From NCBI GenBank assembly GCA_017416535.1, contig JAFQCG010000001.1, positions 62,001 to 126,000 of the forward strand: a DNA stretch of 64,000 nt. The letters are read 5' to 3'. The first letter of the stretch is position 1, and every line of letters starts with the position of its first letter. This DNA is from Bacilli bacterium. Its GTDB lineage: Bacteria > Bacillota_I > Bacilli_A > RF39 > UBA660. The translations under genes and the position numbers were made by a program. The notes under the pieces are model-generated. The model searched no databases and was not told the DNA's origin. It was given only the letters and a program-made list of their open reading frames with translations. Shown here one piece after another: positions 32,414-63,026 of the stretch.

Positions 32414-32529
32414 CTTTTATCAAGAATGAGGGAGAGAGTTAGCTCAGTGAACTCATACCAACCTGCAAGGAAGTAAGGTGGTAATGCTAACAACGATGAA
32501 GGAGGCCACAACTCTTTCAAGAGTTTTTT
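32414..32529 (+). promoter_or_regulatory. SAM-I (S-box) riboswitch with transcription terminator
   Basis: The aptamer pairs CTTTTATC (32414-32421) with GATGAAGG (32495-32502) as P1. It carries the S-box core pieces ATCAAGA, GAGGGA, CAGTGAACTC, CCAACC and AAGGTGGTAAT in order. It is followed by a terminator AACTCT-TTCA-AGAGTT plus T-run (32510-32529). TGAAGGAG at the 3' side of P1 can instead pair with CTCTTTCA of the terminator, giving an antiterminator. High SAM should thus stop metK transcription. Confidence 0.92.
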
Positions 32530-32563: not shown

Positions 32564-33649
32564 ATGAAAAAATACTATTTTACAAGCGAAAGTGTCACAG
32601 AAGGTCATCCAGATAAAATCTGCGATAAAATAAGTGATAAGATATTGGATGAAGCATTAAAGAAAGATCCAAATAGTCATATGGCTGTCGAAGCTACTAT
32701 TAAGGATAATTTAATCTTTCTTTATGGCGAAGCATCTACAAGTGCAAAGATTAATTATGAAAAAATTGCGAAAAATGTACTAAAGGATATTGGATACAAG
32801 GAAAGGTTTGATGTTATTACAAAAATTTCACAACAATCTGTGGAAATTAATAAAGCTGTTTCTAAAGAAGAAGTTTGCGCTGGCGATCAAGGAATAATGT
32901 TTGGATATGCCTGTAATGAAACTGAGGAATTAATGCCTTTACCTATTATGCTTGCCAACAAATTAGCAATGAGATTAACTGAGGTTAGAAAAAAGGATAA
33001 AAACAGTTTTCTATTACCTGATGGAAAGACTCAAGTAACAGTTGAATACATTGATGGAAAGCCTTCTCGAGTGGATACTATTATCATTGCATGCCAACAT
33101 AAAGAGAATATTAGTAGAGAAAAATTAGAAAATTACATTAAAAAAGAAGTCATTTCATACGTTTTAAGTGATGAATTATGTGACAGCAATACAAAAATAT
33201 TAATTAATACAAGTGGTTCATTCACAACAGGCGGTCCTTTTGCAGATAGCGGAACTACAGGGCGTAAGATTGTTGTAGATACATATGGTGGTATAGGAAG
33301 AATTGGCGGAGGATGCTTTAGTAGTAAAGACCCAAGTAAAGTTGATCGTTCTGCTGCGTATTATGCTAGATATGTGGCAAGAAATATTGTAAGTAAAGGA
33401 TATGCTGATAAAGTTGAGATAGGCCTTTCATATGCTATTGGTAAAGCTCAGCCAATAAGCATATTCATTGAAACTTTTGGTACTAACAAAACTTCGGTAT
33501 CTGAAATTGAGAAATATGTATATGATAATTTTGATTTTTCTGTTTCAAATATTATTAAGGAGTTAGATCTTAAGAAACCAATATATTATGATTTGGCTAG
33601 TTATGGTCATTTTGGTAGAAAAGGTTATTCTTGGGAAAAAGATAAATAA
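32564..33649 (+). CDS. metK: S-adenosylmethionine synthetase
   Basis: It makes SAM from methionine and ATP. The 361-residue product has FTSESVTEGHPDKICDKISD, the CAGDQGIMFGYACNET block, TGRKIVVDTYGG and KDPSKVDRSAAYYARYVARN. It is somewhat shorter than the usual 380-400, and the phosphate-loop motif normally read GGGAFSGKD is GGGCFSSKD here. Control by the upstream SAM riboswitch gives direct product feedback. GGAGGAG lies seven bases before the ATG. Confidence 0.97.
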   Translation: MKKYYFTSESVTEGHPDKICDKISDKILDEALKKDPNSHMAVEATIKDNLIFLYGEASTSAKINYEKIAKNVLKDIGYKERFDVITKISQQSVEINKAVSKEEVCAGDQGIMFGYACNETEELMPLPIMLANKLAMRLTEVRKKDKNSFLLPDGKTQVTVEYIDGKPSRVDTIIIACQHKENISREKLENYIKKEVISYVLSDELCDSNTKILINTSGSFTTGGPFADSGTTGRKIVVDTYGGIGRIGGGCFSSKDPSKVDRSAAYYARYVARNIVSKGYADKVEIGLSYAIGKAQPISIFIETFGTNKTSVSEIEKYVYDNFDFSVSNIIKELDLKKPIYYDLASYGHFGRKGYSWEKDK

Positions 33650-33675
33650 AAAAACAGTCTATAGACTGTTTTTTT
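33648..33675. terminator. Bidirectional terminator after metK
   Basis: AAAAAACAGTC-TATA-GACTGTTTTTT hairpin with A- and T-tracts on both sides, serving metK and the convergent gene that ends at 33659. Confidence 0.85.
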
Positions 33676-34471
33676 CTTCTGTTGAAGTTCTTCCTGTAAA
33701 TTTATATGTTGCATCTTCATCATAACTATAAATTTCTTGGAACTTATATACTTCTTTTTTGTTTCCGTTAGTTATATGTAATTCTACTTCTTTTCCTTTT
33801 TTTATTGCCTTTGTAAGTGTTGCTCTTGTTTTTGGAGTGTTTTGTGTTTGATTTAAATTTATATATTTAATATATCCTGATGCAGATTCGTTATATTTAT
33901 ATACAACATCTTTTCCATCATACATTAAGGCAGTATAATCAATACCTACAACTGTTCCAAATAACTTATCATACATATTCATTACAACGTATCTTTCAAA
34001 TTTTACATTTGGTTGTTGAGCTACATAGTGAATATTATTATCATAAAGGTCAACTTCTGTTACATCTGTTACTGTTTGAGTTGGTAATTCTTTTTGACTA
34101 TTTAAAGCTGCCATTACTAAACGCATTTTATTTGTTTCTGATAATGTAGTAACTTCGAATGATCCTTTAATTTCTTCGATATATGTAAAGTTTTCTATAT
34201 ATGAATACAACGTTTGAACAACATTTGAACTTAATTCTAATGTTTTTTCTTTGTTTTCTTCTTCATAGTTGTCATATTCATCATCATAATCATTATCGTA
34301 GTCTTCCTCATAATTTTTATCTACATATATGTCTTTAAAATCATTACCTGCTAGTTTATTATTTTCTTTTGTTATTGCTACATAGATAGTTGTTCCTACA
34401 TATACAAGTAAAACTATTCCAAGAATAATTGTTCTAATTTTTTTATTTGGAACTTTATTTGTTTTTTGCAC
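33659..34471 (-). CDS. Membrane-anchored protein with acidic linker, unknown function
   Basis: About 270 residues: a short basic cytoplasmic start, one membrane segment (about residues 13-31, IRTIILGIVLLVYVGTTIYV), then an Asp/Glu/Tyr-rich linker with repeated DYDNDYDDEYDN, and a C-terminal domain of about 190 residues presumably outside the cell. No catalytic motif is recognised. GTG 34471 follows AGGAGTGG and is preferred to GTG 34480, which overlaps it. It lies downstream of the ABC exporter but beyond a terminator. Confidence 0.7.
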   Translation of the reverse strand: MQKTNKVPNKKIRTIILGIVLLVYVGTTIYVAITKENNKLAGNDFKDIYVDKNYEEDYDNDYDDEYDNYEEENKEKTLELSSNVVQTLYSYIENFTYIEEIKGSFEVTTLSETNKMRLVMAALNSQKELPTQTVTDVTEVDLYDNNIHYVAQQPNVKFERYVVMNMYDKLFGTVVGIDYTALMYDGKDVVYKYNESASGYIKYINLNQTQNTPKTRATLTKAIKKGKEVELHITNGNKKEVYKFQEIYSYDEDATYKFTGRTSTEEKNSL

Positions 34472-34528
34472 TAATACCACTCCTCTATTCTTCTTAATTA
34501 TATCTTTTTTATGTTATCAATACAATAA

Positions 34529-34554: not shown

Positions 34555-36285
34555 TTATGAATTTAAAGATTCTGTTTCATATAAGTTTTTATAAATTTCA
34601 TTTGTTTTTAATAATTCATCATGTGTACCAGAAGCAACTATTTTACCTTGGTCTACTATGTGAATTACATCGGCATCCATGATTGTGGATAATCTATGAG
34701 CAACTATAACAACTGTGTGGGATTTTGTTAAGTTATCAATTGCTTGTTTAATATATTCTTGAGACTGATTATCTAAAGCTGATGTAGCTTCGTCAAATAA
34801 GATGACTTTACTTTCTTTAGCAAGAGTTCTTGCGATTGATAATCTTTGTTTTTGTCCACCTGATAGATTAACTCCACTCTCTCCTAAAACTGTGTCATAT
34901 TTTTTAGGTAAAGACATAATGTAGTCATCTAGGTATGCCATTTTTGTGTATTTTCTTATTGTAGCTAAAGGAATTCTACTATCGATTAATTTAAAGTTTT
35001 CTTTTATTGTTCTATTGAAGATGAATGGTTCTTGTCTAATAATAGAAATATTTTTTCTAAGTGATATTTCTGTTAAGTCTTTTATATTAACTCCATCTAA
35101 TAATATTTGTCCTTCAATTGGATCGAATATTCTTGTGATTAAGTTGAATAATGTAGACTTTCCTTGTCCTGACTTTCCAACAATGGCAATCTTTTTATTT
35201 GGTTCAAGTACAAGATTGAATTTATTAAGAGTTATTTGTTCATTCGGATATCCGAATGTTACATCTTTGAATTCTATAATTCCTTTTGTCTTAGATATTT
35301 CTTTTTCACCATATTTTTCATCTTCATATAATCTGTTTTCTAATATTTCATTAACTCTTCCTAATGATACAACTAGTTTTTGATATGTTTGTGTTAAGTT
35401 ATTAAAATTTTCTATTAACCACATATATCTATAAACGTAGTATGTCATTGATATAAAGAATGTTAATGAGATTTGTTTATAATAGATTAAGATTACACAT
35501 GTTATAAAAACGCCAACCTCTAAAAATCCTTTTAATATCCTTGTTTGTAATGTAAATCCCTTACGTACATCAATTTCATTTTTTGATTTTTGGAATATAC
35601 TTTTAATAATATCTGTCATGTCTTTTAACAGACTGTTTTTTATTCCTAATGTTTTGATTTCTCTAATTCCTCTTATGGATTCTGTAACTAAGGAAGTAAA
35701 GTTATCTTGCTTTTCTTTTCTCTCTTTGTGAGCTTGTTTTAAAATTGGGTTATATTTTCTTATTATTAAGAATAGTAATAATACAAAAATTACTATTTCT
35801 AACCCTACTATCCATGAGTTTATGAAAATATATATAATTACTACTAATGATCCAATAAGTGATGATACAGCACTTAATAAGTGTCCGAAAGAAAAACTTA
35901 ATGAATCTGCATCTGTTGTTATTCTATTTATAACTTCTCCTGATGTTTTTTCTTCATAAGCATATGACGGCATATTTAATGCTTTTTCATATGTATAGTA
36001 CCCCAATTTTCTTGTTAATTTGCTTTCAATTTTTTCAAGCATAGCTCCGGCATAATTTTCAATTATGGCATGTGATAATAATTCTATTCCTAAATATATT
36101 AATAGATATATTACCGCATTCTTTAAAGCCATATTTGTAATCGATTCTACTGCGGCACCATTAAGGTATCCAGTTGCTATTTCGGCAATTCCTGCAATAA
36201 GTATAAGAGAACTTGCAACGATTAATTTTACCTTTTCTTCTTTAATTAGTTTCCATAGAGGTATAAATTCTTTTAAACTTTTCAT
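34555..36285 (-). CDS. ABC exporter, fused permease and ATPase
   Basis: A 576-residue half-transporter of the multidrug/peptide exporter type. Six membrane segments occupy about residues 15-310. The ATPase follows with Walker A IVGKSGQGKSTLFNLI, signature LSGGQKQRLSIARTL, Walker B VILFDEATSALD and the switch His in VVIVAHRLSTI. It probably works as a homodimer since no second half is adjacent. It is preceded by a 32-codon reading frame and a terminator-like hairpin with competing pairing, so its expression looks attenuator-controlled. Substrate is unknown; drugs are one guess. Confidence 0.93.
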   Translation of the reverse strand: MKSLKEFIPLWKLIKEEKVKLIVASSLILIAGIAEIATGYLNGAAVESITNMALKNAVIYLLIYLGIELLSHAIIENYAGAMLEKIESKLTRKLGYYTYEKALNMPSYAYEEKTSGEVINRITTDADSLSFSFGHLLSAVSSLIGSLVVIIYIFINSWIVGLEIVIFVLLLFLIIRKYNPILKQAHKERKEKQDNFTSLVTESIRGIREIKTLGIKNSLLKDMTDIIKSIFQKSKNEIDVRKGFTLQTRILKGFLEVGVFITCVILIYYKQISLTFFISMTYYVYRYMWLIENFNNLTQTYQKLVVSLGRVNEILENRLYEDEKYGEKEISKTKGIIEFKDVTFGYPNEQITLNKFNLVLEPNKKIAIVGKSGQGKSTLFNLITRIFDPIEGQILLDGVNIKDLTEISLRKNISIIRQEPFIFNRTIKENFKLIDSRIPLATIRKYTKMAYLDDYIMSLPKKYDTVLGESGVNLSGGQKQRLSIARTLAKESKVILFDEATSALDNQSQEYIKQAIDNLTKSHTVVIVAHRLSTIMDADVIHIVDQGKIVASGTHDELLKTNEIYKNLYETESLNS

Positions 36286-36292
36286 AATACCT

Positions 36293-36326
36293 CCTAAAAA
36301 TAAAACCTACTATACTTATAGTAGGT
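36293..36326 (-). terminator. Attenuator hairpin between leader peptide and ABC exporter
   Basis: On the minus strand ACCTACTATA, a two-base loop and TATAGTAGGT (arms at 36326-36317 and 36314-36305; four- to six-base loop in practice), then TTTTATTTTT, directly ahead of the exporter's AGGAGG. It would stop transcription before the exporter. CTACTATAAG of its 5' arm is perfectly complementary to CTTATAGTAG inside the leader reading frame (36400-36391), giving an alternative antiterminator. Confidence 0.8.
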
Positions 36327-36346
36327 GTTTGTAAAATTAATCGATT

Positions 36347-36445
36347 CTAATGAGCAGGAAAAAATGCGATTTTCCAACTCCATCCTTTTGCTACTATAAG
36401 TTCTTTAAAATTTGTTTTAAATAATTTGAAATTTAAATTCTTCAT
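36347..36445 (-). CDS. 32-residue putative leader peptide of the ABC exporter
   Basis: A small frame encoding 32 residues, starting MKNLNFKLFKTN and ending GWSWKIAFFPAH. It has AAAGGAGTGGG at proper distance, an ATG start and a TAG stop, and lies directly behind a consensus promoter. Codons 16-18 hold CTTATAGTAG, complementary to the downstream attenuator stem. This is the layout of a regulatory leader peptide such as bmrB ahead of the BmrCD exporter in Bacillus subtilis. It could instead be an exported peptide. No leader-peptidase motif is seen. Confidence 0.7.
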   Translation of the reverse strand: MKNLNFKLFKTNFKELIVAKGWSWKIAFFPAH

Positions 36446-36478
36446 TTTTCCCACTCCTTTCTCTTTAAATTCAAGTTG

Positions 36479-36507
36479 ATTGTAGCACTTGTTTTTTAAT
36501 CTGTCAA
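36479..36507 (-). promoter_or_regulatory. Strong promoter of the leader peptide-ABC exporter unit
   Basis: On the minus strand TTGACA (36507-36502), exactly 17 bases, TACAAT (36484-36479). A perfect -35 and five of six in the -10. Such a strong promoter ahead of a 32-codon frame and a terminator fits constitutive initiation with control by attenuation. Confidence 0.88.
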
Positions 36508-62974: not shown

Positions 62975-63026
62975 ATTATCTTCTCCTTCCGCCATGACTA
63001 ATAAAGTCATAGTAATTCAAATGCGT
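62975..63026 (-). promoter_or_regulatory. rpmE leader RNA with hairpin before the ribosome binding site
   Basis: On the minus strand CTATGACT-TTATT-AGTCATGG forms a hairpin (63011-62992) directly ahead of GGAAGGAGAAG. L31 leaders are a known autoregulatory RNA class in Bacillota; the match here is by position and shape, not by a covariance search. Confidence 0.45.

Follow-up and report, generated by a model that had tools for sequence, protein, structure and literature searches.

The window (the whole 64,000-nt stretch of DNA analyzed) carries on its minus strand a single-gene type IV ABC exporter, preceded by a leader with its own promoter, a small frame and an intrinsic terminator (Table 1). 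The exporter consists of a membrane domain and an ATPase (Pfam ABC_membrane, 2.6e-23; ABC_tran, 5.5e-32), and its Walker A/B and LSGGQ motifs are intact. The best NCBIfam models are MsbA-like, all of them under the cut-off, and the nearest solved structures in the PDB are ABCB1 and MsbA. No peptidase domain was detected in the exporter by Pfam. The adjoining gene (33659-34480) matched no Pfam or NCBIfam model, and there is no two-gene ABC half-transporter pair here; nor is the gene downstream of the leader of the ABC-F type, the target being an exporter of the ABC_membrane plus ABC_tran composition.

Table 1. Features of the exporter gene and its leader in the window (positions in the window)
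Feature	Position	Strand	Basis or remark
Sigma-A type promoter, TTGACA-17-TACAAT	36479..36507	-	read from sequence; 17-base spacer
-35 box, TTGACA	36507-36502	-	
-10 box, TACAAT	36484-36479	-	
Predicted RNA start	~36473	-	from promoter position
S1, conserved RNA 5' end, GAATTTAAAGAGAAAGGAGTGGGAAAAATG	36443..36472	-	holds leader SD and start codon
S1 helix arm	36456-36445	-	
Leader SD, AAAGGAG	36460-36454	-	
Leader ORF, 32 codons plus stop	36347..36445	-	translation; encoded peptide MKNLNFKLFKTNFKELIVAKGWSWKIAFFPAH
Leader start codon, ATG	36445-36443	-	
Leader stop codon, TAG	36349-36347	-	
A, antiterminator element, CTTATAGTAG	36391..36400	-	within codons 16-19; complementary to T5
S2, anti-SD segment, TTTTTCCTGCTC	36352..36363	-	ORF end; 12 bp with S1 here
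Intrinsic terminator hairpin, ACCTACTAT-AAGT-ATAGTAGGT	36305..36326	-	9 bp
T5, terminator 5' arm plus loop	36326-36314	-	pairs with A
CTACTATAAG, ten-base complement of A	36324-36315	-	in hairpin 5' arm and loop
Terminator U tract, TTTATTTTT	36296..36304	-	read from sequence
Regulated gene, type IV ABC exporter, 576 aa	34555..36285	-	Pfam; ATG at 36285

The promoter, the SD, the 32-codon frame, the terminator and the ten-base match between A and the hairpin all lie where the first-pass annotation had placed them. The transcript is expected to start only a few bases ahead of the leader SD, and the T5 arm begins 21 nt downstream of the leader stop codon. Rfam gave no match over the window leader at the gathering score, and chance matches only at a relaxed E-value.

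Immediately upstream of the leader promoter, and in the same direction, lies a gene for an ASCH-domain protein (Pfam PF04266; 36527-36919, minus strand); a similar coding sequence likewise precedes the leader in the same-genus relatives L004 and L005. The promoter sequence of the window leader, ATCAACAAAAAAAGGTTGACA, recurs before another gene of the same genome (L002:1501-1720; G000:C4:17136 onward), where it is followed by a leader of about 120 nt with a strong terminator-like hairpin and without a meaningful Rfam match. The window also contains a SAM riboswitch (RF00162, 58.3 bits) at 32414-32502 on the plus strand, before the gene at 32564, and an L31-Firmicutes ribosomal protein leader (RF03156) at 62983-63012 on the minus strand.

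Distribution of the leader

The upstream DNA of about 120 exporters was read for leaders, which yielded 54 leaders of the same plan, 33 of them mutually dissimilar. They belong to many genera within a single family of uncultivated gut Bacilli, which we take to be placed near GTDB RF39/UBA660. The exporters behind them are 40-100% identical, and the assemblies carrying the orthologues, titled Bacilli, Erysipelotrichaceae or Tenericutes bacterium, derive from gut or rumen material, including that of goat, deer, rabbit and buffalo. The spacing of the -35 and -10 boxes from the leader ATG is nearly constant, at about 33 nt, in most of 46 leaders.

The leader was found via the exporter or via the RNA pattern, and not via the peptide, a protein search with which yielded beyond the genus only weak matches and no leader among the loci inspected. 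At 0-1 mismatch, the S1 DNA pattern occurs in 386 genomes of the family only before the exporter orthologues, once per genome. In a class-level sample, 3 of 296 genomes match the leader pattern at <=2 mismatches, all belonging to the same family; no other family in these 296 genomes matched at this threshold, at which diverged leaders may escape, and an order-level search likewise returned the same family only. A search of the literature outside subscription papers found nothing specific on this leader or on RF39/UBA660 attenuators, and a prior description is possible.

Two covarying helices in the leader RNA

A convincing terminator is present in 48 of the 54 leaders, and in these an element A within the frame is complementary to the terminator 5' arm. 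To quantify this pairing, the terminator 5' arm and loop of each leader were matched against its frame for the most stable duplex. The A:T5 duplex surpasses those formed by codon-shuffled frames in the window leader (p = 0.007) and in 35 of the 42 leaders with a called terminator (p <= 0.05). Frames were also exchanged between leaders, own and foreign frames being submitted to the identical search: the mean energy is -11.3 kcal/mol with the leaders' own frames as against -7.1 kcal/mol with swapped ones (48 leaders; z = -13.9, or -11.6 in 30 dissimilar leaders), and none of 20,000 permutations was as good as the own pairs. This swap test ignores the tree, near relatives making it more conservative, and the dissimilar subset agrees. 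Since own pairs are superior to swapped ones, the A:T5 pairing covaries, and it takes the form of some 44 distinct helices, such as GGUAAUGA/UCAUUACC and AUGAUAGUUUCA/UGAGACUAUCAU. The alternative pairing pointed out in the window by the first-pass annotation is thus conserved, by covariation, across distant relatives.

The pairing also reaches into the terminator loop, the bases of which are not needed by the terminator itself. With the register fixed from the stem alone, 30, 27, and 25 out of 40 leaders show pairing of A with loop positions 1, 2, and 3, respectively, where the expectation is 0.44 (p = 8e-5, 0.003, and 0.015 in the same order). Across the leaders, A begins between 25 and 53 nt downstream of the AUG, past the edge of a ribosome positioned at the start codon. 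It is very probable that the leader is a transcription attenuator with A:T5 as its antiterminator.

The two stems first described, the terminator and A:T5, were both borne out, while a third helix had been missed. The SD and start region (S1) pairs with the end of the frame (S2) over 10-20 bp across the leaders, and the helix encloses A. In the window the S1:S2 duplex amounts to -15.7 kcal/mol (codon-shuffle p = 0.003), and in the comparison of own with swapped partners z is -13.8 in 48 leaders and -10.5 in 30 dissimilar ones. The columns between the SD and the start codon show compensatory AU, UA, GC, and CG pairs. Sequence and comparison together show the parts of the leader, the covariation of both helices and the coding frame, and the parts and the two helices are almost certainly as described here.

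S1:S2 and A:T5 have no base in common in the window leader or in most of the others, and the two helices cross; a pseudoknot containing both is therefore possible. The median loop lengths are 21 nt between A and S2 and 20 nt between S2 and T5. Six leaders (L037, L048, L083, L087, L089, and L093), in which the promoter, the frame and S1:S2 are kept, lack a convincing terminator, and in the same six A is degenerate or missing, so that S1:S2 must serve another use there.

Related exporters are preceded in L135, L155, L170, and L172 by divergent leaders whose anti-SD segment overlaps or abuts the antiterminator segment, which gives the same switch another geometry. The overlap of S2 with A is full in L135 and partial and less clean in L170, and the two pairings are therefore mutually exclusive in these leaders. 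In L135 (G220:C1), which precedes a 49%-identical exporter, S2 and A are one and the same segment, CAUGGGAUU, with a predicted energy of -23.3 kcal/mol for its duplex with the start region and of -19.7 kcal/mol for that with T5; to judge from its sequence, this leader is a classic anti-antiterminator/antiterminator/terminator switch. It is mainly because of this single-segment arrangement that S1:S2 can be read as an anti-antiterminator in general, a function that we consider reasonably likely.

Ribosome position and the fate of the transcript

The effect of a ribosome on these pairings was analyzed in 40 leaders by folding with the occupied bases masked, a procedure that predicts nested structures only, pseudoknots being forbidden by construction. 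Without a ribosome, the RNA finally folds into the terminator (mean probability 0.90), and S1:S2 is formed as well (0.80). With a ribosome at the start codon, the probability of A:T5 before synthesis of T3, the terminator 3' arm, is close to 1 in all 40 leaders, and the mean terminator probability decreases from 0.90 to 0.46; in the window leader its equilibrium value is still 0.61. A ribosome placed on A brings the probability of A:T5 to 0 and that of the terminator to 1.00. These predictions accord with what the first-pass annotation had expected of folding with occupied codons: a ribosome near the start leaves A free, and one on A imposes termination. It had also proposed that stalling either early in the frame or near its end would allow expression of the exporter; the masked folding favors the early stall, whereas a late stall would have this effect only in part, and in compact relatives T5 would itself be occupied by a ribosome standing at the stop codon. 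The three-part attenuator that it had recognized before the ABC exporter (a small frame, a terminator and an antiterminator that a ribosome can mask) thus finds support in both the covariation and the masked folding.

In an undisturbed cell, the first ribosome would run through the frame and would either cover A, or S1 would shut on S2 behind it and trap A in the loop, this closure also blocking further initiation on the leader. With A covered or trapped, the terminator would form and transcription would end before the exporter. A ribosome held at the start codon or on one of the first few codons would block S1:S2 and leave A free past the edge of the ribosome, so that A could pair with T5 once the latter is made; the terminator would then not form and the exporter would be transcribed. 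The leader is thus probably a translation-sensing transcription attenuator, predicted from sequence and folding to activate the exporter in response to ribosomes that stall during initiation or immediately afterwards. The order of these events, the anti-antiterminator role of S1:S2, the inducer and the substrate of the exporter are what we infer.

Even in the free RNA, A:T5 is permitted before T3 in 26 of the 40 leaders, with a probability of 0.99 in that of the window, and S1:S2 can therefore not be a strong anti-antiterminator at equilibrium; according to the folding model, it could act only through kinetics or topology. This early formation of A:T5 in most leaders is also compatible with another reading of the same attenuator, in which S1:S2 merely self-limits the translation of the leader to one pioneer ribosome, may coexist with A:T5 as a pseudoknot, and leaves the decision to whether a ribosome lies over A when T5 emerges. 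The trp leader of E. coli is another that limits its own translation, through base pairing at its ribosome binding site. The lack of a shared base in most leaders, median loops that suffice for a pseudoknot, and the retention of S1:S2 in the six leaders without a terminator are all in keeping with such a role; however, the pairings exclude each other in L135 and, less cleanly, in L170, and the OFF state of the unstressed cell would hinge on a tight spacing of ribosomes. We regard this reading as unlikely and prefer S1:S2 as an anti-antiterminator. The fact that S1 and S2 bracket the whole frame, with A in the loop, suggests a readout of the position of the first ribosome. That the leader is a ribosome-initiation sensor of this kind, reading the place of the first ribosome and not its peptide and deciding via crossing, pseudoknot-type helices, is put forward tentatively.

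The leader peptide and comparison with known systems

The leader frames are 20-41 codons long. In 46 leaders they contain no stop among 1297 codons as against 170 and 181 in the other two frames, the frames counted having been picked for openness; an SD and a start codon are present in all 46, and the frame mostly terminates in or close to S2. These features suggest that the frame is translated. The C-terminus WS[WG]KI[AG]FFP[AT]H is kept within the genus, outside which the peptides have little sequence in common, so that the conservation of the peptide ahead of the relatives' exporters, for which the first-pass annotation had proposed to look, does not extend further. The segment A encodes Val-Val in many leaders and is read in other frames elsewhere (KSSYK in L153). 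What is conserved is the RNA pairing and its spacing, and not the amino-acid sequence.

Stalling specific to the peptide or to an amino acid, either trp-like or as a drug-dependent arrest at the C-terminal FFPAH, is suggested by the conserved C-terminus of the genus and by the presence, close to the C-terminus of 33 of the 46 peptides, of an F with P, S, F or T as the next residue. The terminal F-P codons are nevertheless what the S2 anti-SD spells, and are therefore explained by the RNA pairing; Trp is found in just 9 of 46 peptides, no run of regulatory codons is conserved, and in the absence of peptide conservation outside the genus such stalling is left without support and seems very improbable. 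The role previously suggested for the two Trp codons of the window leader (22 and 24), at which a parked ribosome would cover A, likewise gains nothing from the comparison. A Trp-starvation model was ruled out by the same count.

The strong conservation at the RNA level, together with a frame known from its sequence, might also be expected of a leader binding a ligand or a protein, in which translation would be irrelevant; the uninterrupted frames, the SD and start codon in every one of the 46 leaders, the usual end of the frame near S2 and the lack of an Rfam match at the gathering score make this highly unlikely. That the frame, a small lysine-rich ORF immediately before an ABC exporter, encodes a secreted bacteriocin or pheromone carried by the exporter, the RNA helices being secondary, is most unlikely, since the peptide is not conserved, Pfam finds no peptidase domain in the exporter, and two covarying helices and a terminator bracket the frame.

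For the attenuator that senses translation, the fact that the peptide is not conserved points to a general slowing of initiation or early elongation as the likely signal, caused by translation inhibitors or by a toxic substrate of the pump; inhibition of translation is in our judgment the probable inducing condition.

Among the systems described, the closest in plan is bmrB-bmrCD of Bacillus subtilis, in which induction requires translation of the leader and responds to ribosome-targeting drugs, and in which a leader ORF, a terminator, an antiterminator and a putative anti-antiterminator likewise precede an ABC exporter (PMC4191407). The kinship with it noted in the first-pass annotation holds for this plan, but not for two other features: the terminator of bmrB lies within the leader ORF and its target is the two-gene BmrC/BmrD (PMC4191407), whereas here the terminator follows the stop codon, with an overlap only in a few relatives, and the exporter is a single gene. 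The use of the SD as an arm of a third helix is a feature of the present leader, unlike bmrB (PMC4191407).

In vmlR of B. subtilis, the sequence of the leader peptide is not critical, variants having worked, and a stall at or near the start of the leader opens the anti-antiterminator so that the antiterminator forms (PMC9226507), as is proposed here. The vmlR frame has three codons and its target is an ABC-F ribosome-protection ATPase (PMC9226507), in contrast to the longer frames and the exporter described here, and its anti-antiterminator overlaps the antiterminator (PMC9226507), whereas our helices mostly cross without overlap: S1:S2 does include the SD and the start codon and does covary, while L135 is the one leader with clear exclusion by overlapping bases, L170 showing it in part.

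The cplR and vgaL leaders share a short frame, attenuation and an anti-SD element with the present one, but they control ABC-F targets, and the terminator stem of cplR hides the SD of the main gene (PMC10201436), whereas here the anti-SD at the ORF end targets the leader's own SD. In toiL-topAI of E. coli, a single leader frame responds to translation inhibitors of several classes, including those causing start-codon stalls, but acts by unmasking a downstream ribosome binding site and through Rho-dependent termination, without an intrinsic terminator switch (PMC12121999). The present leader would work like the bmrB and vmlR controls and, by the features tested, is a member of neither family; what is new is a family of leaders whose frame is bracketed by a third helix of the SD/anti-SD type.

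To the single experimental cases in which efflux pumps are controlled by translation-sensing attenuation, this family would add a group supported by covariation in many genera of uncultivated gut Bacilli. Its 54 natural sequences, with several geometries (crossing helices, overlapping helices, terminator lost), bear on the respective shares of the peptide and of the ribosome position in the switch, and the exporter is marked by its leader as a likely contributor to the tolerance of translation-inhibiting compounds in the gut.
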